From IMG/VR virus record IMGVR_UViG_3300025151_000046, positions 1-53,757 of that record: DNA of 53,757 bases. One strand, 5' to 3'. The stretch's first letter is position 1. The number at the start of each line of letters is the position of its first letter. The position numbers and the translations under genes were made by a program. A model generated the notes under the pieces. That model saw only the letters and a program-made list of their open reading frames with translations. It made no database searches and was not told where the DNA came from. The stretch comes from a virus. Below are positions 2 through 40,752 of this stretch, one piece after another.

Positions 2-2182
2 GATTGGAAGGGGCACTTCGCACATGCTATCCCACGCAGAATGATGGGAATGTTAAATCCTCAACAATTCGATTTTAGTATGATGGCCGCAGGTATTGGT
101 ATGATTTCGGGTGATGTACATAATATGCAAGGTTTGCAAAGAAAAGGTAAAGATAAGGTTTCAAGACAAACAAGAAATTATCTTGATACTATAGTACATT
201 ATGACCCTAATGCTGAACTAGATGAGTACGGTCTTTTTACACCACCAAACGAAGTAGTTGAGACAGCAGGTCTGAAAATGGGTGCAGTAGGCGCACCAAG
301 TCCAAACAACTTTTCTATTATAGACTCCTTTGATAGTGGTGCTTGGCATGGTGGTCATGAGTGTAATCCTAATGTTGGTTGCGAGTTTGATTCGCAAGGT
401 AACATTGTGGCTGGTACTAATCCCGGCCCCGGTTTGTTCTACAGCGTACCCGAAGAGTTGCTTGACGTAGCACATGGTAAAGGAAATTGGGAGGAAACTT
501 GGAGTAAAGCACCACCTCCGCAATACACACTTCCTCCATTCCTAAGTATGAATTATGATACCTTTGAAACTCCAAATGATGTTCCTACTCGTATTGCTAT
601 GAGCGAAATGACTGAAATCATTACTTCTTTACTTGACCCCGACATCTTGTTGACGAAGAGTGATGAAGCGGCTTGGTCACCAGCAGTAAGACCTATGCAT
701 CGTATTTTCGATATGAAGGATTTAGAACATTTGAAAGGTTTCAGTGGTTCTTGGGTAGTAAGTAAGTGGTATGATGGTCAAAGAGTTATCATTGTAAAGA
801 ACAGCAATGAGGTTACGGCATACAATGAAAGCGGTAAAAAGAAAGGACTTCGTAAAGCCACCAAAGAAGCCTTAGAGAAAGTTAATGATAACAATTTCAC
901 TATAGATGCTATTCTCGGTGAAGAGGATTTGAATATCATTGATATTTTAAATTACGATGATAATAATATATCTGACATGCAATTGTATGAGAGATTGAAG
1001 ATACTACGCTCTCAATTTGAAAGTCATGAAAACGTGATAGTTCCCGGACCTCACGATACTAGAATGACAGATGATGAAGGACTTGAAGAATCGGTCAACA
1101 ATCTAAAAGAAGAGCATGACAATATTCTACTTAGAGATAACAAGTCTACCTACATGAAAGGGGAGAGAAGACATCCAAAGTGGGTGTTATATCGCAGCAG
1201 TAGGGATTACAATTTCATTGTATTAGATAGAAGAGGTAAGGGGCCATATACTTACCAACTTGGTGCAGGGCCAATAAATCACGGTGAAGAGTTAGGTAAT
1301 CGAGCGATTGAACATGATGGTCACTATTACATGGACATAGGTACGGCACACAATCAACAAAAGGTATTCAAAATTGGTGACATCGTTAGAGCATCTATTA
1401 CAGGTGTAACAAAGAAGAATAGAAAAGAGCGAGCAGTTTACAACGTGCAATTCAAAGAAATAGAAAGTGAAGGAGAAGGAGAAGGGGCAGCGAGTGTCGA
1501 ATCTCTTGATTTGCTCACAAAGTCGTTTGCACCAATTTTGATTCCTCACGATATTGAAATTGATGATAAGTATATTCAAATTATCATGAAAGATGTTGAC
1601 GTTGTAAATTATTCTTACGAGCAATTAAATGATGCATGGTACATTCATTCACCTACAAGTGCTATTGGTTCACTAAAGAAAACAGATTATCCTCTAGTAT
1701 TGGCTGAAAGTTTGTTGCCGTTTTGGTCGCCTGTAGCACCTCTTATGATTTCGGGTAACGTAAGAAAAGAGAAAACTATGGATATGCCTAAGAAACCAAC
1801 TGAAGAAAAGGTGGAAGAGCAGAGTGTTGGTATTTTAGAGGCCGATGACGAGGATATGATTGTCAAACCCGAAAGCAAAAAGAAAGCACTAGAGTTAATA
1901 GTTCGTGCATTGGATGTAATTGCTAAAGAAAAGATGACTTGGACAGGGCCAAAAGGACTTGGAATTGATGTAGGTTCGCCTCAAGAGTCACCTCGTGGCC
2001 CCACCCAACTAAGACACGAGTCTACTTTACCCGATTTCGATGGTGAAAAGAAAATTAATCATGAAAAGAAACACTCTGAAAAAGAGAGACTGAATCACAT
2101 TCAAATCAAAACAGAAGAAGGCGAGAATCTTTCTATAGACTATGACAATGACCAGCCAATCGTGTCTCAAAGCCAAAGTTAG
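2..2182 (+). CDS. Virion protein in portal position with degenerate DNA-ligase-like domain (5' partial)
   Basis: The reading frame is open to the left edge, so the start is outside the window; the first internal ATG is at 41 (residues numbered from it). A fold like ATP-dependent DNA ligases can be read at about residues 225-385: KWYDGQR at 242-248 resembles motif I, NIIDIL at 298 resembles the segment after motif III, NILLRD at 361 resembles motif IV and HPKWVLY at 378 resembles motif V. An OB-fold-like segment follows (FKIGDIVRASITG at 443). Key residues look lost: if YDG is aligned to the canonical K-x-D-G, the nucleophilic lysine is Trp243 (a Lys sits one place earlier), motif IV Glu is Asp, and motif V lacks its second Lys. 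The C-terminus is acidic and low-complexity. The gene lies directly upstream of the prohead protease, where tailed viruses usually encode the portal. I cannot confirm a portal fold, so ligase-derived structural protein is an inference. Confidence 0.5.
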   Translation, partial: DWKGHFAHAIPRRMMGMLNPQQFDFSMMAAGIGMISGDVHNMQGLQRKGKDKVSRQTRNYLDTIVHYDPNAELDEYGLFTPPNEVVETAGLKMGAVGAPSPNNFSIIDSFDSGAWHGGHECNPNVGCEFDSQGNIVAGTNPGPGLFYSVPEELLDVAHGKGNWEETWSKAPPPQYTLPPFLSMNYDTFETPNDVPTRIAMSEMTEIITSLLDPDILLTKSDEAAWSPAVRPMHRIFDMKDLEHLKGFSGSWVVSKWYDGQRVIIVKNSNEVTAYNESGKKKGLRKATKEALEKVNDNNFTIDAILGEEDLNIIDILNYDDNNISDMQLYERLKILRSQFESHENVIVPGPHDTRMTDDEGLEESVNNLKEEHDNILLRDNKSTYMKGERRHPKWVLYRSSRDYNFIVLDRRGKGPYTYQLGAGPINHGEELGNRAIEHDGHYYMDIGTAHNQQKVFKIGDIVRASITGVTKKNRKERAVYNVQFKEIESEGEGEGAASVESLDLLTKSFAPILIPHDIEIDDKYIQIIMKDVDVVNYSYEQLNDAWYIHSPTSAIGSLKKTDYPLVLAESLLPFWSPVAPLMISGNVRKEKTMDMPKKPTEEKVEEQSVGILEADDEDMIVKPESKKKALELIVRALDVIAKEKMTWTGPKGLGIDVGSPQESPRGPTQLRHESTLPDFDGEKKINHEKKHSEKERLNHIQIKTEEGENLSIDYDNDQPIVSQSQS

Positions 2183-2191: not shown

Positions 2192-2215
2192 CCATAACAG
2201 ACACTTCTTGTGGCA

Positions 2216-3583
2216 ATGTTGGCAATTCAGCGACCAAATGACGGTATCGCTCTTCTCAAGAGTGGGTCCGATTTGGTAGTTGCTGGATATGCTTCTGTGG
2301 AATTGGTTGACAAGCAAGGTGACCTAATTACTCAAGGTGCTTTGAACGATGCCTTTGGTAACTTCATGAAGAGTGAGAAATTCCGCAATGTGCAACTAGC
2401 ACACTCCAACATCCAAGTAGGAGAAGTAATTGACTCCTATGTAGATAGCAACGGTAGAATGTGGAAGTCTGAAGTAGACGACACAGGAATGTTTGTTGTA
2501 GTTAAACTCCGTAATGACATCGAGAAGGCTCGTGAAGTAGCCGCAGAAATCCGCAAGGGTAACCTTCGTGGATTTTCAATTGGAGGCCAAGCATTCAAGA
2601 GAGTGCGAAGGTCTGATTTTGAAAAAGGCGACTATCAAGAGATTTCAAAAATGGAATTGCATGAGATTACTATCTGTGAAAAGGGAATTAATCCCGAAGC
2701 ACAGTTTAGAATTTTAAAGGAGGACAAAGATATGACTGATACAGATATTAGCAATATAATGGAAAGGCTTGAAAAGAGGCTTGACGAATTGGAGAAGGGT
2801 GAAATGCCACCGGGACTCAAGGAACACATGGAGGACAAGAAAGAGTCCAAAGGTGACGAGCCAAAAGAAGAAAAGAAAGATGAAGAAAAAGAGGATGATG
2901 ACAAGATGCAGTACATGAAAGGTGATGAATACAGTGACGTTATTACTTCTGAATACCTAAGTTGGATGGAAGGTACACTAAAGTCTGCTGGTATTGATAC
3001 AGAAGCAGCAAGACTACACTTCGACAACTTGGAAAAGGCACAACTTGGTGGATTCGACAATCCCGATGCAGTTGACGGTGCTGACTACTTCGCTGGTCAA
3101 GTCCGTGGCCGTGGACAGGAAAACGGCTCTCCATCTACAGGTGCAATCAACGCAATCACTGCAAGCGGCGGTAAAACACCAGCCGGTGCAATGGGAGCAG
3201 CATCTTTGGCTAAGGGTTACCTAAACCACGGAAATGTTTCCGAGGCTGACATTGAGGCTGCATACGAAGTTTACAAGGCAGCAGCACAAGAGCAACACTT
3301 CCGCAATGACCTTGAAGGTCACTTTGCAAACAGATTCAACAGAGAAGTTGAAATCGCAAAGTCACAGCAAGAAAAGGCCGCATTCGATGCAAGAGGCCCA
3401 CTATCCGAGATTATGAAATCTCTTGAGGCTCTAAACGAGCGAATTGACAACATCGGCACAGGCGGAGTAGCAATACAGAAGTCTGATGTTTCAAACATTG
3501 AAGTTCCTTCTACGCAGGATTTGGCAAACATGGGATGGGATGAAGTCCACGCCCTTGCTTCAAGAACCATGAGGGGAGAATAA
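2216..3583 (+). CDS. HK97-type prohead protease with C-terminal scaffold-like region
   Basis: Cleaves capsid and scaffold proteins during prohead maturation. The N-terminal 165 residues match the S78/U35 (HK97 gp4, XkdF-like) protease layout: AGYASVELVDKQGD at 23, His63 in QLAHSN, Ser121 in RGFSIGG and a Glu-rich strand ELHEITICEKG at about 147-157. The spacing agrees with the HK97 triad (His65, Ser115, Glu148). The rest is a highly charged Lys/Glu region (about 180-230) and an Ala/Gly/Gln-rich tail, resembling a fused scaffold as in XkdF-like proteins. ATG 2216 is preferred over GTG 2210 because it fits a leaderless start behind the TATA box at 2184. The major capsid gene follows 22 nt downstream. 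Confidence 0.85.
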   Translation: MLAIQRPNDGIALLKSGSDLVVAGYASVELVDKQGDLITQGALNDAFGNFMKSEKFRNVQLAHSNIQVGEVIDSYVDSNGRMWKSEVDDTGMFVVVKLRNDIEKAREVAAEIRKGNLRGFSIGGQAFKRVRRSDFEKGDYQEISKMELHEITICEKGINPEAQFRILKEDKDMTDTDISNIMERLEKRLDELEKGEMPPGLKEHMEDKKESKGDEPKEEKKDEEKEDDDKMQYMKGDEYSDVITSEYLSWMEGTLKSAGIDTEAARLHFDNLEKAQLGGFDNPDAVDGADYFAGQVRGRGQENGSPSTGAINAITASGGKTPAGAMGAASLAKGYLNHGNVSEADIEAAYEVYKAAAQEQHFRNDLEGHFANRFNREVEIAKSQQEKAAFDARGPLSEIMKSLEALNERIDNIGTGGVAIQKSDVSNIEVPSTQDLANMGWDEVHALASRTMRGE

Positions 3584-3605: not shown

Positions 3606-4706
3606 ATGGCAAGAGATTATATCAGAAACATTCACGACATGGAACGCTACTACTACGGTGCGGGTAACGCTATGGGTTACTCCTACTCCGGTAGCGAGTT
3701 GTTAAAGGCAGATGCGCCAATGTTAAGCACAACTGCTGGTACATACCAAGCGATTTATGGTCGTAAAGTATGGTCACAGTTGAACCAAGAATTCAATGCA
3801 TTTAGCATTCTACCAAAGAGGCCGTGGGAGAGAAGCGGTTGGAGAGTTATCACAGGTCGCCCATCGTTTAGCGTTGGTGGCGGTGTAGCAGAAAACGCTA
3901 CTCTACCGGACACAACCAAGCCAACCTTCCAAAACATTGCAGCAAAGCCAAAGACAATCGTACACACATTCGACATGTCTGAGACAGCAATGTTCCTTGC
4001 AGACAAGGATGACGGACTTGGTGACATTCGCTCTATCATGAAAGAAGAGATGGGTAAGCACCACGCAGAACACATCAACAAGATGCTAACCACTGACAAG
4101 GCAACTGTTGCTGGAAACGACTTTGAGTCACTTGACAGAATCACCACCGGTGCTTCCGCAGGTACCGCTGAAGACATTTACTCCATTGACCGAAGTGCAA
4201 ACTCATGGTCATTGGCAGAACACAATGAGAACAGTGGAACTGACAGAGTTCTATCACTAGACCACCTAGACGACCTATTCCAAAAGATTTGGACTCGTGG
4301 TGGTAATCCAAAGGTTATCCTAACAGGATATGACACTTTGATGAGACTACAGCAACTTCTACAGAGCCAACAGAGGTTCATGGAAGAGAAGAGAGTCACA
4401 CCTACCTACAACGGTGTTAAGGGTGTACCGGGTATTGAGGCTGGATTTATCGTAGCAACTTACAACGGTGTACCAATTATCCCTTCCAAAGATGTACAGC
4501 CCGACACACTGAGCAGAATGTACTTCCTTGATACTGACTACGTTTACTTCAGTACAGCAATTCCAACACAATACTTTGAGTCCGGTATCGAGACAGGCGA
4601 CCCATTCGCTATCAACAGACTAGGACAAGAAGGTATGTACCGCACAATGGGAGAGTTATGGACTACTTTCTTCGGAGGACATGGTTCTATCCGTGACCTA
4701 AAGTGA
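3606..4706 (+). CDS. Major capsid protein, HK97 fold (predicted)
   Basis: Forms the icosahedral shell. The call rests on position directly after the prohead protease, a length (366 aa) typical of HK97-type capsid proteins, a strong ribosome binding site, and the character of the sequence: an N-terminal arm, then an alpha/beta body with segments such as RMYFLDTDYVYFSTAIPTQY near the C-terminus, like the late strands of HK97-fold capsid proteins. The N-terminal region (about 1-50) is Gly/Tyr/Ser-rich. There is no long delta domain, so scaffolding is probably supplied by the protease gene's C-terminal region. A related group in archaeal tailed viruses is likely, but I recognise no signature motif, so this remains a context-supported call. 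Confidence 0.8.
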   Translation: MARDYIRNIHDMERYYYGAGNAMGYSYSGSELLKADAPMLSTTAGTYQAIYGRKVWSQLNQEFNAFSILPKRPWERSGWRVITGRPSFSVGGGVAENATLPDTTKPTFQNIAAKPKTIVHTFDMSETAMFLADKDDGLGDIRSIMKEEMGKHHAEHINKMLTTDKATVAGNDFESLDRITTGASAGTAEDIYSIDRSANSWSLAEHNENSGTDRVLSLDHLDDLFQKIWTRGGNPKVILTGYDTLMRLQQLLQSQQRFMEEKRVTPTYNGVKGVPGIEAGFIVATYNGVPIIPSKDVQPDTLSRMYFLDTDYVYFSTAIPTQYFESGIETGDPFAINRLGQEGMYRTMGELWTTFFGGHGSIRDLK

Positions 4707-15060: not shown

Positions 15061-18000
15061 ATGGTAGCAATTGGTCGTAGTAGTCATGCATATTTCTTTG
15101 ATGGGGTTTCTGATTCTATCATTGTACCGCAAGGTAGGTTTAGAAAAACAGGCACAGGGAATGCACAAGGAAACAATGTCTCTGTAAAAACACTTGATGG
15201 TAGTGATGATAGAACAAACATAACAGGTAAAAACGATACAGAGTTTATTATTGAAACATTCGTAATTCCCGATTGCGGTGGTGTTATTGCATTCCGTGAA
15301 GGACAGTTCTCGCTTGAGATGGGTACAGTAGACACACCGGGGCCAGCAGTGTTTACACTAAATACAGAGTCAATTCAAGGCCCATCTTTCATTAAACTAA
15401 CAACTGCTTTCGATACCACTACAAGATGGGATGGTATAGTATTTCCTCAACAAGTTAGTGGAGGAATACATGATACATACAATAGGTATGACAGTAGTTT
15501 AGATGAAGCCACCAATCTTAATTTTAACAACAGACCACTATACCATGTTGTTGCTGGATTGTTGAAAAACAAAGTATTCCTTAGTGTAAATGGTGAGATA
15601 GTAGCATCTCAATCTGTACCCGATAGTACAGTAGTAGCCCGTAGTACAGACCACGTTTACATTGGTGGGAAGGGTGGTGAATTCCGTGGTGCTATCGAAG
15701 CACTACACATGACTAGCAACTTTACAGAAGAGATGTTACTACCTCACATTCCTGTAAAAACACCAGCGTCTTCTGCACTATTTAGGTTTGAAGAACCTAT
15801 TGACATCATAGAAGAATCATATTCCTTTACTGCTTTCACTGCTGCTTCTGACGGTACAACCACTACTCTCACTATTCCGGCAGCAGATGCTCAAGCACTG
15901 ATTGCTAGGCTAACAGGTAAAGCCTACGACTCGTCTTCTCCTACTACCGATTTTAGAGCCACCCCATACAGTATGGGTAACTACAAAGTAACCGATTACT
16001 ACACCACCCCAAGTACACCATCTACTATTGCTACTGCTCACACACCTTACAATCTGTTAATTAATCCGGGTGCTGTAAATCGTAACTCTCACAAACCAAA
16101 TCAGTCTCCACCCGAAAGAGTTAGACTCCACAGCATAAACGGTTCAACCGGTGTGATTACAGTATCTAGTATTCACATTGATTTCGTAAACGGTACTAAC
16201 GGTTTGAGAGGATTACTTCACTCTCGTACTGCTGATGTGGACAATTACTTCGTAGTAATAGGTGCTGACTTACTAATTGACAATGGTACAGGTAAACCAT
16301 ACCAACCACCACACTACGGTACACAGATTTTCGACAAGACGGGTCAAATGACTATTGATGAAAGTTCATTTGAGAATCATGGATTTGTATATTCATCTCG
16401 TATGGCTACCACTACAAGTGACCCTAACAACCCGTTTGCTGTAAATTGGCCTTCGGGACTTGATGCTTTGTTCCAAGTAGGTCACAGTGGTAGACACTTG
16501 TATTCTCATATTACAGGTCATGAATACATGCGGAGGTTCCCAAAGCCTACTGACATGATAATTGACCAGCAAATTGATGGCTCTGCTGACATAGTAGAAA
16601 TGGTCTATGAGAACTCAACACAGTCTATTCAAGAAATGTTTACCATGAATGGATTGATTGATTTTTACAATGATGCGATTGAAGCACCAATTGCTAGAAT
16701 TAAAAATTCTTCAACTGTAGCGTCTATCGTAAACAATGGACTACCTGCATCCAAGAAGGAATTAATTGCGATAGGTGGATTAGGGTTTGACTATGCACCA
16801 TTTATGCTCAAGGGACCGGTACCGGAATATGGAGACATAAACGATACCACTAGGTTGTACCACTTATCTCCCGAATCAAAAAGTCGTATTGCCTTACTAC
16901 ATGTTCCTGCTCTAAAATCATCTTACGATTACGCACCGTATGTAGAAATACACTACAACGCTATTGATTTGACAGGTGCAAGTATGAGTATATCCGGTCC
17001 AATGCTGATGGTAGAAAAGACCGTACCGGCAGGTAATCACATAGTTACAGGTTCTACAACTATCTTAGACGTAATCACTGCTGACCTTGCTAACACCACT
17101 CTGTATTCTGCTGGTGGTATAATCACTCTAACCAACGCCATAGATGGGTTTGGTGCCAACCTAGAAGACTCTCACACACTTATTGGAGACAATACAGGTG
17201 GACAAGAAAACGATGTGGAATTAGATTACAGCACTACCCCTGCGTTGTACACTCCCGATGATGATGTGTCTGCTATTCCTGCTTCACCACCTAAAGGAAT
17301 ATCTCGTTCTCACAACAACGCTGTACATGAGTCTGTATATCACAAACTGTGTATTGAAGCAAGGTCACCTATAAGTCAGAATACTAATACCGATGCTGAC
17401 GGTATAGGTAACTTCACCCTAAAACCACTAACTGAAAAGTCGGGTACGGGTGTATTTGACATCGGACCAACCACCTCATCGTCAAGATTGTTTGAGATAT
17501 ACGACATCATTGACAATGTGCGAATTACAGATGAGGCAGGTATATACTGCAAGATTTTCGTGCAGCCTTCAAATAAATTAAGGAGTAATCAATTATCCTT
17601 GATTAGAACTGCTGAAACAGATACAGTACCTAACATTGCAAGTATAATGGTACTGATGAGTAGATGTCGTATTCGTGATGTAAAGAATGTCCAAGATGCT
17701 GAAAACAACATGGTGATTACATCTGTAGTCGGTAAGGGTATTGCAGATAGTTTCGTCAATGAAAACGTCAGCGTAATAGGAAGCGGTTCGCCGGATTCTC
17801 ATATTGTAAAAGAGATTGAACCTAACTCTCCTGTAGTTACTGTCAATCTTGGTGGGCCGGGGCAGGGGGCGGTGAATACCAAGCCTACATTCGACCCTAG
17901 TCCACTAATGAGACTACCCGGCTCTACAAGACGTAACTGTGTAATACAGGCTGTCCGTGTAAATACAGATACTTCTGATACCCATCAATCAATAACTGTA

Positions 18001-21000
18001 GTACCAATAAATAATGAGTCGCCCGACGTACAATCATGGGGTACAATCTGCTTTCCAAAGGTTGGAAGAATATATCTTGAAGACGGTGCAAGCGCAGAGT
18101 ATTCATCAAAAGTCGGTGCAGGTTTCTTATTCGATGATACTAATGCGGTAGCAGATAGAAAATATTTGGATGCTGCTGGTGTTGCATATGATACTTTACA
18201 CAAGTGGATGCAAGCCAATAATCTGTATTCATATACTAATGCGGGGACATACTCAGTATCGTTTTTCATTTCTAATGACCCCGATTTCGATAATAGTAAT
18301 TTAACGCAAGATGGTAGCACCGTAAACGACAGACTTTTCCAAACCATTAGTGACGTAACTCACGATTACCAACTTGGTACTCAGTATGCAAGCACAAGAG
18401 CAATGGTGGAGATACCTGTATTCCCTAAGCAGTTCTTCGACCATACTGCTGAAGGTATATTCCCCGGTCCCGATAATAGTATGAAATTGCATATTGATGC
18501 AACCTATACAGCCCATACTTGGAACCCTACTCCTGTAGGCCGCAGAGCCAAAGACATAGAGGCTGCTGATAAAGAGGTATTTTCAGCGTATTCTTACAAT
18601 GTACAAAACAAAAACTATGTTCAAAGTGCTACTATTACAAAGGTAGAAACTGTATCTAACAACATACGAATTTATGTTTCACATCCACATATGTTCCCCG
18701 ATGCTACTTTAACTGCAAGATACGGTAACATGGCACCAAGAGTTGGGTATAGAAGAGTGTTTTTAGGAAGTGGTGATTGGGGTATATACGATAATAATCC
18801 AACCTCTGATGGATATATCTCGATACCCGATGGGTATGTATCTGCTGGATATGATAATGGTTTTACTGAGAACTTTAAGACTAATGCTACTGTAGGTTCT
18901 AAAATACACATTACGTCGGGAATAAATAACCAAGTCTTAATTCCTATAAGCGGAGGTGCAGGGCTTCCATCATCTGATTTTGAAGGCAGGTCTAACTTTT
19001 ATCATGACAGTGCAAATGTTCAAACTCAAGGTGGTAATCTCGATTACGGTTTACGTCAATATGTCAGTGCTGTAGAGTTCAAAGCGGGGCCATTGGCTAA
19101 TCCTCATGCACCTCGTATAGAATACGGTAGAGCAAAGGCTACTATTGTTGCTGCTAGAATAGATGGAAGAATGCACTTAACTTTGGATGATGCATCCCTA
19201 TTCCCCGACCCTCCGTATTCAAGAGATTCAAATAACGCTGTAGAATTTAACTTAGGTGATTACCTATATATTGTCGAAATAGGGTTAGATACTCCCGAAG
19301 AAGTGCTGTATTTTGGTACATTACAGGGTAGTCCTACAAGTAATGAAATAGTTATAGAACGTAAATTCGGTAGTTCAATTACTTTAGATAATGTGGTTGG
19401 TAAATCAATCTACCTAAAGAAAGCAGTACTTGCTTGGAAATCTATTTCAGACCCTTCAAATATTGGGGCTAATGAAGCAGACACGGCCATATTTGACTCA
19501 ATTTGGAAAAGCACAGTAAGTGTTGCTTCGGGTACTACAGACGCTTTTTGCGTAAGTCATACATCTTCTTACTTGAAATTAGGTGCTAATACAATTGGAC
19601 TTAATATAAGAAAAGGTGATAAAATTTATTCAAGAACCGGTAACGCTAATTACATTGGTGAGGTAAGTGCTGTCATAGATAATACATATGGCCCACTAAC
19701 TAATTTTGATATAGCATCTTGCACAGTAACTAATGGCATTCCCACCATTACAGGTATATCAAGCACCTCTAATATTGTAGTAGGTATGGCAGTTACAGGA
19801 AATGGTATTCCGTCTAATACTCATGTATTAACAGTTGATTCAAGCACTCAAATTACTTTGGATAAAAATGCAACAGGACTTGGCTCAAGCCCTTCTTCTG
19901 AAACACTTTCATTTGAGGTTGAGGGTGCAATAATTAAATTAACAGGAAATAATCTTGTTGGTACTAACCCAAGTGTTGCTACAATTGGAGTTGCAATTGG
20001 TGACACTACTTCAGAAGATTTCGATGCAGTATTAAATCGCTCTTGGATATATCCATATGCACAAGGTGGTTTGCGTAATGGAGATACTGTATGGATGAAT
20101 ATGACCCTAAACAACCCTCATGCTGTTGAAGGTCTATTTTGTAAAAGTCGTGGTGTACTAAACGAAGCACTCGTATGGAATGGTTTCAACGGTGGTAGAG
20201 GCGCATTGGCTGGTAGTCCTCGTGATAGCATACCACTTGAAAACTTCTTAATTGGTAATTCATGTCTTGAAACGGCACAAAACTTTGCACAACATATTAA
20301 CAAAACAATTGAGTTAAACTATGAAGCATTTGGCTTAGATGCTAGTCAAGCCCCCACTATTGCATATGTAGACCCATATCTGTCTACAGATGGACATGCT
20401 CGTGTACTACTGTATGATGTGGCACATGACCGTGAGTTTATTGCTTTCCACGATATTCACATGCAAGTACAATCAAGCGCATCTACTCCAACTGTAGGGT
20501 ACACAAGAAATATTGTATATGCAAATGGAAATACAGGTAATTTAGATAAGATTCTTTCGGGAATAAACGGTAATGCACCTCATTATTTAACAACTCAAAT
20601 AGATGTAATGAATGGTTTTCCGTCTGAAAATAGATTTATTCGCAGAACTCAACAATCTAAATTTATTGAAAGCGCATATGCACACAATGTACCGAGTATG
20701 ACTTCAAAAGATTTAACTCAGAGTACAGGTGGTACAGAAACAACATATAATTTGAAAAATCCATCTACTTCGGGTAATAACTCTCATCGTAAAGGTAAGG
20801 GTCACGGTCACTTTGTGCATACAGGTCTTTACCATGAAGGTACATCTGATACTCATAATATTGGTGATAGTGTATTACCAAGAGTAGAGCCAGCAGTAGC
20901 ATCTGTATATTGGTCGGTTGAAAAACACAAACTGTCGAGAAAAGCAAATGGAGAAAATTTATTATTAAATAAACTTAGAGAGCATAGATTGTCTCAAAAT

Positions 21001-24000
21001 CCTGCGACTCATTCTCTAAGAGATACAAGCACTATGTTTGATACTCCCGATGGTACTCGTGTTATCTCAGCATTCCTTTGTTTAAAGGGTAAAAGAAACA
21101 CTGCACTTGACTTAACCAACCATGAAGAATCAAGATTGCAACATCTAAAGCATTGGACTGAAATGGACTTTGTAAGAAGAATGGTTGTAGATTTAGGTGA
21201 AATTGGAGTCAAGGAAGGAGTTACCGACATCGAAGCAGCAGCAAGAGAAATTGTAAGGGTGATAAATCAAGGTGGGGCACCAAACGGTAGAACTCATGCA
21301 AGACGACCATCTCAACAATATCCGGGTGAAAGTGAAAGATTAGACCTTACTAGAATAGGTGTAAGAGCAGACACATTAGACGAGAACAAAGACCCTTCAT
21401 CTGCACACATCAATGCTGATTTTGCTGCTACAGGTTCTACTCATGACCCTTCACCGTTTTGGGATGGTAGTGTGGCATTTGAAACCCATGATAGAGGTTC
21501 CCACATGGGATATGTCAGAGCGCATTTAGGTAGGGTAGTTGAAGACATAAACGGTAACGAAGGTTTCTCAGTAGTAATCCACTCAACTATACCGGGTGCG
21601 AGTGGTCGTAACTTCTGTGTATGGTTAGATAATAGTAAGGGTCAATCTAACTACCAACCTCAGTTCCTAATTGGACACGGTGGTAGATTTAGAAACTTTT
21701 GGGCACAACCGGATGAAACAATCGGTGAAAACATGCACCCCGCACCTATGCCATTAAACAAGCATGGTAGACCATTCGCCCCTATTACTACTCTAAGAGA
21801 GATGGTTATACAAGATAGTCCCGATGAACAATTCACAAGTAATCACGACATAGGACCAAGACGTGATAATACTTCAAATCCAATACAACGTAATCTATCA
21901 GCGCATATTGGTGGTATATCTCAAAATACAGTAAACGATGAATCGTTTGAATCTCAAAGCCCATCTATGACATTGGTAAAGGGACTAAGAGCAGGTAGTC
22001 AAGCAGTAGCGAGAATCAACTTCGGTGGATTAGTAGCAAGCGGTGTACCCGGCTTTTCTCCTATTGCTGGTAAACATGGATTTGGAAGAAAGGGTAGCAC
22101 TGACTTTGATAAGATATACAATGAAGCAATAAAGTCGGGAGACACAGACCCTACTGCAATTACGTCTTATTCTACACATGTACCATCTGCTGATGTAATT
22201 GAAGATAACATAGGTAATTCATCTCTATATGGTGTTAGGTTTACCGACCATAGAGGAAGAGGATATGGTGTAAGATATATCTACAGACAATTAGGAAAAG
22301 AGTTTGCAAACGAATTAACTACTATTCCTTCAACTATAGATGAAGAAGTGTGTATCTACTTTGATGATAGCGATGTAAGTCAAGGTGGATTTACTATTGG
22401 TAATCACATGCTTGGGTGGGGTGACGTTACAGGCAGAGTAGACATATCTAATTTTGAGTCGGGAGAAGAAGAGGTATCTTGGCGTGGTAATCAGTGGCGT
22501 GGAATACCTGCACCCGATGTTGGTATAGATTGTTACATACAGTGGAATGGTACTGAGATGACTGTTACACTAGAATCTCCATTTGGTACTTCAGACACCG
22601 GTTCCATTAGCCTTGAAAAACATCCCGATATACTTGGTTATCTTGGATTCCCTAGAGAAAACGGTGTAATACAACTTACTGACCCGTTTACAAGTACCAC
22701 TCGTAAAGGTTCTACAGGCACAGTTATCTCTTATACCTCAAGAACCCAAAATAGTCTAACAGGTACTCATACTTTCTTCGGTGTTATTGGACCCAATGGT
22801 GCAGTATCTCATAAATTAGACAACAATAATAGTGCTGCAACTCTTGATGATACAGGCTCATATACCTTCAACGATAATGAAATTCATAGATTAATTATAA
22901 CACCAAGATTGAATTGGACTACTTTAATTACTGATGAAATTATTGCTGTGGCTACTGCTCACGCAATCAACTTACAAGACCCTAACATCGAAGAGGGTGT
23001 ATCGTTTGATTGTACACAGTTCTATGCCGCAGACGGTAGGACACTAGAGGAATGGGGTGTGAGTCCCGATGCAATAAAGATACGAGCGCATAATCCTCAA
23101 AGAAGTATAACTCCTATCTCTACAATGTTTAGTGCTACAGTTCACAAAGATTTGGGAATAGAAGCACCACATCTCGAATATGGTGAATATGAATACATAG
23201 ACAAATCTACCCTAAATCAATGGACAATTAATACAGCCCAATCACAACACAATCCTGTATCGGATGCTAACATAGATAAGAATAGAAAAACGGGTTGTGG
23301 TTTCTTACCTCGTACTATCCTCCAAGTTAGGTCAAAAAGTCGTGGTTTCCATAGTAACACACCGACTCCTGTAATTGTTGATTCATACAATGACCCAATC
23401 AATATCACGAATTGGAAAAACAATTTGATTGGTGTGAATTACACGTCAGTACACGGTGACCATATTCTACCTAAGATTGATAGTGGTATGATTGTATTTA
23501 CTAAATACCATCATACTTCAAAATACTTTGAGGTATCAAACCCACAAAGACTAACACATATACTAATTCCTGCTGGTCAAGAATCTACATCTGAACATTC
23601 GGAAACTAAGATATTGTCATTTGGAAGCACTGCAAAGTTGTGGATAAGTAAAACAGCATTTGCTATAGCGACTTCGTATCAAGGGAGTAATTCTATGGCG
23701 TACATAGAAAAACTAAATGGTAATACTGATTTTGATGAAGTATATGGTGGTAGTGATGTAAACGATGATGGTATTCTTCTTACTCATGGTGATAAACATT
23801 TTACGGGTCATAGACTATACGGTAGTATAGAAAGCCAACCCGTTGTACACTTCAAGGGTGGCAGAGACAGTATAGACCACAGCGTACCACTTTATTTCGG
23901 TGGTGGTTTCAGTGGTGTAGTGCTTGACATCAATGACGGTACTCAGAATGATTATACTTCATTCTATACCCATCCGTATTCTAGTGGCCCTACCGGTACT

Positions 24001-27000
24001 GCTGGTATTCAGAATGCTAACGAAATTAGTACATCGTTTGCTATCTTAGATTGTAACGCTATGTTGGCATTCTTCCCCGGTACACCATTACTAAACCAAC
24101 ACAGAGGAAGCATCACCCCTCCTGCTCACAATAAGAATAACATTCTGTCGCCCGATTTGATGAATGGTACATACTCAAGAGCAGGTAGACCGGCCCAATT
24201 ATCTGCTCGATACACTGCTGGTATAGTACCCCAAAAGGCAGTGCCTATGGTTATAAGGGTGCCACATCAAAATGCAAAGTATCGTGATTATGTAGGAGAA
24301 GATGAGGATGGAAAGTATTTCACAACTTACCTAATATTTGGTCCCGGTCAATCATTCCCATTTACAGAAACCACTGCCGCTAATAGTGATGTAGAACCCC
24401 ATCCGGGTTATGTAATTACTACAGGTAACACTTGGAGTAAAATGCCATCGGGAGTAAATCTTCCAAATGAAATTAAAAACTCTGATGGGGAGTATGGGCC
24501 TCCAAGTAGTACATATCAAAGCAGAAGAAATCGCTTCCAATATCACACTACTATCAATTGGTCACCAGCAGAAGGAATACCGAATATAGGTGATGTGACT
24601 TTTACAAATAATACCGGAGAAACAGACCACACACCCGGTGGTACACCGGGTTTTGGTGGGGATGCAAGAATTTTACGAGTGGATAGCACTTCAAATATAG
24701 CAGTAGGTATGACAATTAATGGTACGGGTATTCCTACTGATTCACTTGTAACACAAGTCATTGATTCAAGAACTTTTAAAATTAACCAAGATACTACTGA
24801 TTCTAATAGTGGTGTTACTTTTACTTTTACATTAGGTAGTACATACGGTTTAACACAAAGACCCGAACACGGTTATCATTATGGAGAACATTTCTTTAAT
24901 CCTTTATCGGGTAAAATAGTTACTAACAATGAAGAGGATTACAAAAAGGCTCACCCATACCAACATTGTAGCATTGGATATTACGGTATTACTATGAGTG
25001 CTGATATGACTTGGCACATGGACGGTGGTTATCATCCGGGTGGTAATTGGTTAGACCAGCAAATGTCATTTAACCCACCTATGGAAAAGGACAATTATCG
25101 TGTAGTTAAAGAAACCAATAACGTAATGCAACCAACTGCATTTAGAGCATCGGGTGTATTACATAGTGATTGGATTGCAGGAGATAATTTAGAAACAGCA
25201 GATACATACTTTAGAGATACCATACTTGTTGATGCAACACGTTGTCAAAACGGTGAAGAGTTGGCGACTATCATAGGTCAAGCCATAAACGAAAACCCCG
25301 GTAAGAGTGCATTAAAGGCTCTTGGTGGCACCTTTATGCCATCTATGGGAACATCAATGAGGCAAGATAGATATGGTTGGATTGAATTGGGTTATGTTAA
25401 TTACAACCACTCTGAATCTACTTTAAATGAAGCAGGTATTACAAATTTAGGTGATAATACGGCTGCTACTACATTTAACAATGGTACAGGTTATATTTTA
25501 GCAAGGTCGCAAAGTTCTCACACACAAGCACAATTAGAACAAATTCCAGCATCCGGTTGGATTCGTACTGACTTAGGAGGTAGATTACCTTCTGACCCAA
25601 CGGGCACTGATGCGCCTACTTGGGGTTGTTATCATTCTCGTGAAGTTATACAGATAAGTTCTACATGGCATGTATTATTCCATCTTGCACCAAATAGAAT
25701 AAGTGGTTTCCCGGTAATGGAGGATATTACTACATGGGATGATAAATGTGAATCCACAACAGCATTATCATTCCCCGATTTATTAGGTACAGGCTCTCTT
25801 AACCCTCCTACGAAAGTGTATGTATGGTCTAAATCGGGAGTAAATACATTCGTAAATAACATAGGAGACAATGACAATTTATTGCATAAATCAAGTGTAC
25901 ACTTTAATGGATTAGTAGATGCAATAGACCGTACAAGACCTATTGGTGCAGTAGGATGGGCTGGTGAAAGATACTCCTATCTTAACTCTCTAAAAGTAGG
26001 AACATCTAACGTATATGCAGCAGGTCTTGGTGCTTGGCACCCAATGTTAGGATTCTCACCGTATGGTAAGGCATCATCGGTAATGAATACATTTGGTCAT
26101 CTTCCAAATATTTCACCGTTAAAGTACGCACCGGAAAGTACCGGCCCAATTAATGGTCGTAGTGGTGCTGACTCAGTGCTAACTTCTGCATATTCGTGGA
26201 ATACAGGATTAGCATCTACTGATTCATTATACACCGGGTATTCATTTGAAGATGCTGAAGACTCGCTATATGGAAACAAGCCTGTTAATATATTGAATGA
26301 TGGTGTTGACGTAGTAGAATCTTTACATAGTAATCAAGGTGTATTTGGTAGAGCATTCTTAGTAATTTCTTACGAAGGTGAACTTCCGTTAATTGCAAAG
26401 CGTGACCGTGATGGTATTACAGCAACAGGTGATTGGTTGGCAGTAAGAAGTAAACTTTTGCAAGAAGTTGATGTATTTACTGCTTTGAAATTTGCTGGTA
26501 CGAATCAATGGAGTGAAGATATTCATGGTGCTGATAGATTTGTAGCACCTGCTAATGGTGGGCCAAACATTGAGGCTTTGATAGTTGATAATATAGGACC
26601 AGCAACAGATGATTACACTTATTCTTCTGCATTTACATTTAATTCTACAATTTCTGCTGATAGTAGTTTGAAAAATGCTGAACCATGTCTACACCCCACA
26701 GGTGACTTATTCTTTGATTTAGATGAAAGTCCGGGCAGTTTCTTCTTACACGATAATAGTGAGGTAGAAAGAAACAGAGCAGTAGATTTTGTTGATGTTG
26801 CCGACACAGAAATGACTACGAGATATGGTGAAAGGTCATATTGGGGTACTGCAACAAACGCAAGAAAACTAATGCTCAATACCCCAACAAAGAATTTCTC
26901 AGTAGAACATGTAGTTTGGAAGAGAATGGATGGAGGTAATCTCTCACTACCTGCACCAAATGCTCGTGGTCTTGGTGCAGTACCATTTATCACAAGAGTA

Positions 27001-30000
27001 GACAATGGTAATCCGCTTACTATGGGTGAGGAAATATACGGTATCAATAGATTTTCATTTGAGACTACTAACAGTGCAATGTTCCCAATTGTACAGGCTC
27101 AAGAATTATCTCACCCTCAACTAGCAACTCAACATCCCGACGAGTTGAGGAATGCATTAATGATTCCAAATGAAGAAATACAGTTTGAAGAAATTATGGT
27201 TACTGACGATACAGGACAAACCCATATCATCGAGGGTGGTTCACCGTTTGGTACTATTATTAGAACATACAATACTGTATCAGATAGAGGGGCAGAAGGT
27301 TTGGCACCTTCCATTACTAACAGTGGTATCGAACCTAACCTAAAGATTAGACTACCCGACCCCGAAACTATTCCGGGTAACATCATTATCAGACCGGGAT
27401 TCGGGGCTTTACAAGCATACCAAACTGAAACTATCGGTAGTGGTGGTATGATGAGGCCGATTTCTAGTGCCGCCCTCAAACATTTGTTTACTGATGAAAC
27501 AACAGGACCGAGGTTGGGGCCATCCTTTAGCGACCACAATTGGGAACATATTAGTCAAGCAGCATCGGGAGAAGCATTCCCCGATTCTACATACAAGGGG
27601 TGGGAGATTGCTACAGGTAACGCACCACTAGAAACATCTTACGAATTACATGATAGAACACTATATTTCCACATTACTAAGAATGGTAATACACATTCCC
27701 ACCGACATCCAAATTATTATTCTCATGCAAATGGTGTAGAAAATAATGAATTGACAGGAGTATCGTATAGTGGCACAACACTCACTGTAAATGCAGCACC
27801 AAGTACATCTTTATACAATGAAACAGTTGGACCGGGAGACAGTCGTAAATTCTTGAGATTATACAATCCAACCACAGGTAAAGGCGGAGTTGCCTCTTTT
27901 ACAGGAATATCGGGAAGTACGTTCATCGGATGTGTAGGTGATGCTGACTTCCAAGAAATAATTAAGAGTGATATATCTTCTTACAAAGTAGTCCCATCTT
28001 ACTACATACCTGCTGGTTCTACTCGATTCTTTGCTGCACGAAGATTGCGTGACCACGCTGAGGTAAGCGGTAACAGCCCCGATACAGCCCATACCCTGTA
28101 CTTTAGAGGTGGTGGTACAGAAGAAGTACCAAAGACATTGTTTAGACGACCAAGATTATCTCCATTGGCTGCACCTCGTATGGGTCATCACTTTGTAAAC
28201 CCAACTATGGCAGTGTTACCGGGTCATTGGGCGCATCCTGCTTATCAAGGACTTTACAATAAACATTTAGCAATAAGGTCTGCAACTCTAAATTCCGAAG
28301 AAAGGGCATTGATGCAAGAGCAGAATTTAGACGATTTAAAATCTGATATTAGCACAACACTAACAAACAAATTACACGGATATGATACTATTCATAGATT
28401 TGGTGCATTGAATGCTACCCCAAGTGGGCCAAGTGATATTCATGGTGGGGCATTTACTTTGATGTTTGAAACCAAGATTAAGACTGATGGTTATGGTGTA
28501 CTTGCATCTGAAGGTCAAGCAGGTGTAGTTAATTCAAAAGGCGGACATACTGTAGTGCTTGAGGCTGCTGCTAATTACACACTAGATAACCACTTCCCCG
28601 ACCCTTCAGAGGTTGGTGCATATCAGATTGTTATACAACCTAACGTATTCAAATCTCAAATGTTGGGCTTCCATGCAAACGGCCCTGCTGATGATGTTCC
28701 CGATGGAACAGTCAATGAATTGACAAGTCAACAAGTAGCACTTGTCATAGGGATTAGAGAGTCTGATAGTGCAACAGGTGGATTAGGTCTTGTATTGGCT
28801 GAAGCAACTATGGCTGATGTAAGAGGATGTGAGATATTCATTAACGAGATTATGATTGACCACGACCCCGACCATATGAGTCAATTTACAAATATACCAC
28901 CGTTAATGACTTACAATCCATTAGGGGTACAATCTACTGAATCACCGGCGTTTGTGAAGAACTCATTACCATATCAACCACAAATGTTCGTAAAGGCTAC
29001 ACCCGGTTATACTACTAACATACCGTGGTGGAGTATCACACATAGATATGGCCCCGACCATTCTGAAGCAACATCGTTTAGACATCTAAGCCACCATAGA
29101 TTCGATAATTACTATGAGTTTATACGAGCAGGTGCAGGTAGTATAGGATGTCAGATTACACTTGCTGGTTACCCGAGTACACACCCCGACATTTATCATG
29201 AAATTCTTGAAAATGTAAGTTTGAATCCTGTATGTACTGTGGTATCTGTAGCGGCTACAACCATTACAGTAGACGATGCAAGAGGTTTCCCAATGGTGCC
29301 TTACTACGGTAACAAATTAGAGTACACCGATGCAAGCGGAATAAGACGCACTCATGATTATACTGAGCGTAGTGGGTATGATTCAACCAATATGAATAAA
29401 CCAAAGCAATTCACTATCACAGCAAATACTAATTTCACGAGTAATTTAACTGCTGGTACAAAATTGCGTTTAACTCGTGCTTATGATTTTAGACCATCGG
29501 GTAGTATATTTACTGATTCTAAATCTAGTATGGTAACAAGAATTTTACCGCAGATGCTACAAGGTAGCAGAGATACTAACAGCCTACATATGGCTGATGC
29601 ATTCCTATGCCTGTGGCATCCCAATCTTGGTCGCCCACATACCTTCTATTCTGATTCAAGTCGTACATGGTTATCTCCTACACTAGATAGAGCAGTAGAC
29701 AAGAAACCATTGAACAGTATGCCCGAACACTTTGAAACAATACACTACCATGAGTCTACTTACTACGCAAGTATGGGTCCATTTGGTCTACAAAGAAAGA
29801 CACCTCGCCCACCTCATAAATATAAGAATAGTAGTAATACTGAAATTACTTTCACGTCTAAACATTCGGGAAGTGTAATGAATGTCAGTACCACAACAGG
29901 ATTGACAGGTACCCCTACCATAATGGTAGATGGTATAGTTTTCACTGTAGCGAGTTTTACAGCGAGTCCAGCCCGTATAACTGTAAATGAAGGAATACCG

Positions 30001-39219: not shown

Positions 39220-40752
39220 CTACTGTACAGGTCGTCTTGCTACAATGTCATCAATACGCAAGATAGCGTTAGTAACTTCTGCTGCACTTAGCACAGCCTG
39301 TCTAACCAAATCAAGCGGCTCTACAACACCTTCGGCCAACAAGTCCTTGACACCACCTTCTGTGACATCCGGCCCTACTGTTATCTCTCCTTGCAGGATA
39401 CTGTGTCGCATAGCAAGAATAGTATCTAGTGGGTCATGACCCGCATTTTCTGCAATAGTAGCAGGAATGATTTCTAGTGCATCAGCAAATGCTTCGATAG
39501 CCATCTGTGCCCTACCGCCTATCTGTGCTGCATGTTGGCGTAGGTATGTAGCCATACGCACATAGGAGTTGCCCCCACCCACGACGTAGTTCTGACCCTT
39601 CATTACAAGAGACACTACACCGAGTGCATCATCAAACCCACGCTCGACTTCCTCAAGTGTGTGCGAAGTAGCACCACGCAGTACAAGGGTAGCCTCATCA
39701 CTACTGTACAGTTCATCGCCTGTCTTTTTGTCAATGCCCGGACTAACAAATAAATACCAAATGTCATTCTTTCTTTCACGAGTAATTAAAACTTCACCGG
39801 CGGTTTCAATCTCATCGGGAGACTGAGCGATAGGTAGGTTGCTAACTCTGCTCAATGCACGAAGAGTGGATTCGGGGGTGCGTCTAACTGCCATGATATT
39901 GTGTTTCTTCAAATGAGAACATACCATATCATTGATACCGTCACGCACGAATACAACTCCACCTTTAGGTAGTGCCTTTACGATGTACTTTGCATTAGCA
40001 AGTAAGTCAGCCTTACCTGCACTCTTGTAGGTTTGATATGACTGAGCATCTACAGATAACTGTATGTTATCATCATTCTTCTCAGTCTCAAGACCTGTGT
40101 TAATCAGCAGTAACTTACTGTAATTGTCATCACCCTCAAGCACATAGTCCTTGTTTACAATGACACCGTTGAAGAGATGTGAATCTTCTATTGAGCCACC
40201 GGGGAATGAAACTACCTTGACACTTTCAGCATCACCGGCTTTCTCTACTGCTGATACACATAGTTCTGAAACTGCATCCAAAGCATTCTCAAGAGTCTTA
40301 CCTGTAATCGCTGTCTTTGCAATACTAACTAGAAGACCCCTAGATTTACTTTGTTTAGCAATCTCTGTTGTTAGATATTGTGTAGCCATCTGTGCTGCTT
40401 CGTGGTAACCACGGCATATCACATTCGGGTGCAACCCTTTCTCAAACAACATCTCACTGTTACCAAGCAGTTGACCCGATAACACTACTGTACTTGTTGT
40501 ACCGTCGTAACATAGTGACTCTTGTGTACGAGCCACTTCTGCTATCATCTTACCGCCGGGGTGAGATACATCTAGTTCACGAAGGATGGTAGCACCGTCA
40601 TTTGTTACAATGACATTGCCGTGTCCATCCACCATCATTTTATCCATACCCATAGGACCAAGCGTAGACCTAACTGTTTCTGCTACAGTCTTCGCTGCTC
40701 TTATGTTGTGTATTTGCGCCTTATCTTGCTTTACATTTCCTGTCTCTGACAT
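39220..40752 (-). CDS. Group II chaperonin (thermosome subunit)
   Basis: ATP-dependent folding chamber of archaea. The family signatures are clear: [13 protein letters not shown] at 29-41, TNDGATIL at 50-57, DGTTST at 83-88, and the conserved catalytic Asp in [11 protein letters not shown]. Length is 510 residues, against about 545 for cellular subunits, and the usual Gly/Met-rich tail is absent. Two family positions differ: CYDGTT replaces VGDGTT, and GGGNSY replaces the typical GGGAxE. Thermosome genes are a known hallmark of magroviruses. The gene lies 1 nt after the exonuclease gene and may serve folding of virion proteins, including the giant tail protein. Confidence 0.95.

Follow-up and report, generated by a model that had tools for sequence, protein, structure and literature searches.

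The window analysed here, a stretch of 53,757 nucleotides of viral DNA, begins inside a magrovirus gene for a protein of about 1,900 amino acids, whose ligase-fold core has lost its catalytic residues. In the reading that we regard as fairly probable, this is a head-assembly protein that would be built into the prohead and cut by the prohead protease, and its dead core would serve as a binding module. It would represent a group-wide case of a nucleic-acid enzyme fold recruited to the head module of a tailed virus. A limited full-text literature search found no report of a dead ligase in a virion.

Identification of the gene and its ligase fold

The first open reading frame (ORF) of the window (2..2182, plus strand) is open at its 5' end, at the contig edge, and encodes the C-terminal 726 aa of the head-module protein. 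The missing 5' end was recovered from relatives. The full length is visible in the loci L001 and L164, and the whole gene in the near-identical virus L001 (L001:2422-8181) encodes 1,919 aa, with 99% identity to the window protein across the 726 aa that they have in common. The gene is followed on the same strand by an S78-type prohead protease (2210..3583; PF04586, E 7e-10), whose scaffold-like tail carries many LxK[SA] sites, and by an HK97-fold major capsid protein (MCP) (3606..4706; phrog_24667, E 1.9e-62), which shows 37% identity to the HVTV-1 capsid protein. Farther downstream than the head genes, one ORF of 5,832 codons (15061-32559) takes up almost one third of the window.

Profile searches revealed a match to PF01068 (DNA_ligase_A_M) in ORF 2-2182, scoring 28 bits where the cut-off is 26.2 (E 2.1e-6), and the same domain was found in 32 of 32 homologues. 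When the family profile was compared with the PDB, it retrieved a thermococcal DNA ligase (4eq5, E 6e-4) with YDGxR in register. The AlphaFold2 model was confident at residues ~231-590, with a pLDDT of about 80 in the core, and the top solved structures in a Foldseek search with the predicted fold were archaeal DNA ligases (6wbo, E 2.5e-13, probability 1.00). The TM-scores of the structural matches to archaeal ligases were low; we explain this by the half of the query that was modelled with low confidence and by movement of the domains. In addition, when aligned profile to profile with 22 genuine archaeal ligases (hhalign, E 8.5e-8), the family was collinear with them from the PIKPM start, which reads VRPMHRIF in the window protein, through motif V. 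Pfam, Foldseek and hhalign thus agree on a ligase nucleotidyltransferase-like core with an OB-like beta region (residues 231-508; 692..1525, plus strand), as the original prediction had proposed for the gene upstream of the prohead protease, and neither the profile search nor the structure prediction gave a pure portal fold. A weak match to PF09894 (connectase N-domain; E 0.025, 2 of 32 members) was dismissed as chance.

The N-terminal 1,195 aa showed no notable match in Pfam, PHROGs, PDB sequences or folds. AlphaFold2 was fairly confident for this part (L001:2422-6006; pLDDT 78, pTM 0.64), and the model, which found no structural match in the PDB or BFVD, possibly represents a new fold. A region of about 1,200 aa without detectable relatives is thereby defined in viruses that occur widely and have marine group II archaea as hosts. 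No close relatives of the whole protein, hereafter the pseudo-ligase protein, were found in the phage collection, and none were found in cellular genome contigs with the family profile. Pfam and PHROGs also detected no polyvalent or known effector domains in it.

Loss of the catalytic residues

The ligase motifs were located by the profile alignment with the archaeal ligases and surveyed in 137 distinct homologues, divergent ones included (about 41% identity to the L069 branch). First, in motif I (VSKWYDGQR; 758..784, this and the following motifs all on the plus strand), EIK-YDGAR of the archaeal ligases lies opposite VSK-W-YDGQR, with the nucleophilic Lys over Trp256. This position is occupied by Trp in 70 homologues, Met in 52, Tyr in 11, Phe in 3 and Leu in 1, and Lys was found in none of the 137. 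Second, in motif III (NFTIDAIL; 893..916), EGE has become DAI. The second Glu is replaced by Ile304, and its position holds Ile (117), Val (12) or Phe (8) and Glu in no homologue. Third, EG..K of motif IV is DN..R in the window (HDNILLRD; 1115..1138). Fourth, motif V, WLKIK in archaea, is WVLYR (1181..1195), in which the first Lys has been exchanged for Leu and the second for Arg; the first is Leu, Met, Val or Ile in every homologue, and the second is kept in 26 of 137. Motif VI (RxDK-type, OB domain) was not seen in the profile alignment with archaeal ligases, which is weak in that part.

Changes of the nucleophilic Lys, the motif IV Glu and a motif V Lys had been predicted from the window alone, and the profile alignment bears out all three; the motif III Glu is a fourth catalytic loss beyond those named at that time. 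The missing nucleophile is shared by all of the magrovirus homologues, and no intact Lys appeared at its position in the alignment. We considered the adjacent Lys, K255, as a replacement nucleophile and ruled it out, as a Lys is present there in only 67 of the 137 homologues. The fold is retained in motif IIIa (LNIIDIL; 929..949), all 137 homologues keep the motif I Gly and Arg together with the STY Ser and the motif V Trp, and G259, R261, S382, Y384 and W394 are all at least 99% conserved. Because the nucleophilic Lys, the motif III Glu and the first motif V Lys are gone in every homologue, the core appears catalytically dead by its residues. Catalysis by the known ligase mechanism would not be possible, and the fold has been kept.

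The catalytic positions now carry bulky hydrophobic residues (W/M, I/V/F and L/M/V), as would be expected if they served packing over ligand binding. The ligase fold might accordingly be a purely structural protein-protein platform, for example on the capsid or the portal vertex, with no role in nucleic-acid binding. We regard this as somewhat unlikely; against it stand many invariant basic residues (R261, R331, K333, R336, R378, R390 and K393), some of which are ordinary residues of the ligase fold. Binding of DNA by the core is possible, and we propose it tentatively.

Selective constraint on the core

No part of the ~1,900-aa protein is better conserved than the ligase core, whose mean pairwise identity is 57% compared with 25% in the N-terminal 1,190 aa. 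The dN/dS of the core had a median of 0.046 and a maximum of 0.098 among 147 pairs. Core divergence runs in parallel with portal divergence (r 0.96) and with protease divergence (r 0.95), and the core has therefore been inherited along with the head module. Because the catalytic losses are universal, the fold residues are invariant and the dN/dS is about 0.05, the gene is, on these sequence comparisons, a pseudo-ligase maintained by purifying selection throughout the group and not a decaying gene.

Position in the head module

The upstream part of the module is visible in L164, where the terminase large subunit (terL) is followed by a 434-aa gene, the portal, three small genes and the pseudo-ligase protein. 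The module order is thus terL, portal, three small genes, pseudo-ligase protein, S78 protease and MCP. Among 240 loci carrying the ligase domain, some of which overlap on one contig, the protease lay downstream in 235, and a separate portal preceded the pseudo-ligase gene wherever the upstream sequence was long enough. The order terL, portal, pseudo-ligase, protease and MCP was found in essentially every sufficiently long locus, which gives the gene a fixed place between the portal and the S78 protease and MCP. The portal is a separate gene of 582 aa (L164:3388-5136; PF04860, E 7e-10, 39.0 bits, just short of the cut-off of 39.1), and Pfam found no portal match in the pseudo-ligase protein. 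The original prediction had put the gene in the portal position and had suggested a ligase fold recruited for the virion or for packaging. The degenerate fold in a head gene module is well supported, but the link to the portal was mistaken. The recognition of nicks or DNA ends at the portal, which that prediction also raised, would become in our reading a possible binding of DNA or of partners within the head.

The 434-aa gene between the terminase and the portal (L164:2087-3391) has a weak LAGLIDADG-like C-terminal stretch, perhaps a homing endonuclease insertion, and the portal itself weakly matches a double zinc ribbon around residues 85-105. The head operon with the pseudo-ligase gene runs opposite to the replication genes. 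Among the latter we noted a viral chaperonin (Cpn60/TCP-1, E 1e-120) on the minus strand (window 39220-40752).

Published ligase annotations of magroviruses

Magrovirus genomes measure 90-110 kb (ICTV). Across 14 virus records with lengths of 66-109 kb, metagenomic contigs that may be incomplete, the sole PF01068 match was the pseudo-ligase protein. In an earlier set of 29 records, 28 had a PF01068 match, and every match fell inside the pseudo-ligase gene. NAD-dependent ligase (PF01653) and RNA ligase (PF09414) were absent from the large magrovirus records examined. In the literature, a DNA ligase is encoded by almost all magrovirus vOTUs (PMC10160649, where the annotation included a Pfam hmmsearch at E 1e-5), and the ICTV family profiles list an ATP-dependent DNA ligase. 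In magrovirus A (group A contig_156409), the genes for an 'ATP-dependent DNA ligase' and a phage prohead protease adjoin, lying under a single 678-bp read, and this matches the position of the pseudo-ligase gene (PMC7318539). Because that study puts the ligase gene beside the prohead protease, the published magrovirus 'ATP-dependent DNA ligase' is probably the pseudo-ligase gene.

These descriptions imply that the viral replisome has a functional ATP-dependent DNA ligase, a reading with which the Pfam and NCBIfam matches and the listing of the enzyme for almost all vOTUs and for the ICTV families would agree. We find it scarcely credible, given the three catalytic residues absent from all 137 homologues, a motif VI that was not seen in the weak part of the alignment and a gene that lies in the head operon, in the reverse direction to the replication genes. 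Whereas the magrovirus descriptions place the ligase within the replication suite, the window gene lacks key catalytic residues and belongs to the head module. A pseudo-ligase in the head module would correct the repeated view of magroviruses as viruses that carry a DNA ligase of their own and thus replicate with little help from the host. Since the only ligase-family gene in the near-complete records is dead and stands among head genes, magroviruses probably depend on the host ligase.

Candidate prohead-protease sites

The HK97 protease cleaves its capsid protein after a Lys. We found that the motif [LIVMF]xK[SA] abounds in the magrovirus protease and in several small head proteins, with 9 occurrences in the protease against 1.3 expected from shuffling and 4 in a 176-aa small head protein against 0.55 expected; several of the sites in head proteins are conserved (57-80 homologues). 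Close to the N-terminus of the capsid protein, SELLKA (3693..3710, plus strand), putatively cut between Lys and Ala, is a candidate cleavage site in 72 of 74 capsid proteins, and K-A-D stands at this place also in the capsid proteins of HVTV-1 and HCTV-1, which are only 35-37% identical. In the pseudo-ligase protein, DLLTKS (1508..1525, plus strand) closes the core and is a candidate site for a cut between Lys and Ser; the Lys is present in 137 of 137 homologues and is followed by Ser or Ala in 126. Just ahead of the core lies ILLTKS (644..661, plus strand), whose Lys is mostly kept and whose next residue is variable in the 32-homologue alignment. Within the pseudo-ligase protein alone, there was no excess of conserved LxK[SA] over a conserved LxE[SA] control. 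The conservation of DLLTKS at the end of the core suggests candidate processing directly behind it. Cleavage of the pseudo-ligase protein by the prohead protease is a plausible reading of these motifs, to which we lean slightly.

We also observed that the C-terminus of the protease, DLANMGWDEVHALASRTMRGE (window 3530-3583), resembles the end of a small upstream head protein, ELHEMSWEDIHEMANDARGVAQ (L164:5830-5886). The likeness is present in L006 and L164, and the same pattern was not matched in L269 or L273. It is possibly a shared scaffold or capsid-docking tail.

The protease-site-like motifs and the place beside the protease could also point to an assembly factor or chaperone that is not part of the virion, works inside the cell and is removed before maturation, and other viruses remove scaffolds by that route. 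However, known scaffolds do not resemble a protein of ~1,900 aa that is largely folded and whose globular core is strongly conserved, and we consider this explanation very unlikely.

Proposed role of the pseudo-ligase protein

The most likely role of the protein is that of a head-assembly or internal head protein, and its association with the head is likely. The step that we propose with the most confidence is that the protein would be built into or onto the prohead. The neighbouring S78 protease would cut it after the Lys of LxK where Ser or Ala follows, notably in DLLTKS after the ligase/OB core, and would probably also cut the capsid protein and its own scaffold tail. With the least confidence, we suggest that the dead core, in which the lysine required for lysyl-AMP is missing, has been preserved for binding and may clamp DNA or dock on the capsid or portal, and that this binding may help head assembly, packaging or genome organisation. 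A far-reaching version would extend to the whole archaeal tailed-virus order, in which a replication-type ligase would have been turned into an obligatory, protease-released head component whose clamp holds the packaged genome or its ends, with the host ligase joining the DNA; this we regard as speculative and somewhat improbable.

Comparison with known systems

The archaeal ATP-dependent DNA ligases (Thermococcales; PDB 6wbo, 4eq5 and 2cfm) have the nucleotidyltransferase and OB-like fold in common with the pseudo-ligase, which is collinear with them from the PxxPM start to motif V and keeps the fold residues of motifs I, IIIa, IV and V. Unlike these enzymes, the pseudo-ligase has lost the nucleophilic Lys and the motif III Glu, its motifs IV and V are degenerate, and it is fused into a ~1,900-aa head-module protein.

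By capsid protein, the nearest cultured relatives are the druskaviruses (HVTV-1 and HCTV-1), which, as magroviruses do, encode very large proteins between the portal and the prohead protease (HVTV-1 gp113 and gp115, and the HCTV-1 equivalents). HVTV-1 gp115 differs in that it carries zeta-toxin and ADP-ribosyltransferase domains and not a ligase fold. These domains follow the pattern of injected polyvalent proteins (PMC5512222), and in the head of phage P1, DarA/Hdf attach to both capsid and DNA (PMC12810830). The very large pseudo-ligase protein, a neighbour of the protease in the late head module, might likewise be packaged and ejected, its dead domain entering the host with the DNA and binding nicks or ends or occupying a host factor, and so protecting the genome. 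We judge this to be unlikely; the pseudo-ligase protein has no homology at the profile level to the head proteins of HVTV-1, HCTV-1, vir519 and vir335, no sequence similarity to the HVTV-1 proteins in this slot, and no enzymatic or known polyvalent domains were found in it.

For the head-assembly role that we prefer, counterparts exist in which head proteins of SPN3US are cut by the prohead protease and P1 DarA/Hdf contact both capsid and DNA (PMC12810830, PMC7411985). P1 DarA/Hdf and the SPN3US ejection proteins are head-internal, and their likeness to the pseudo-ligase protein would be one of functional analogy only.
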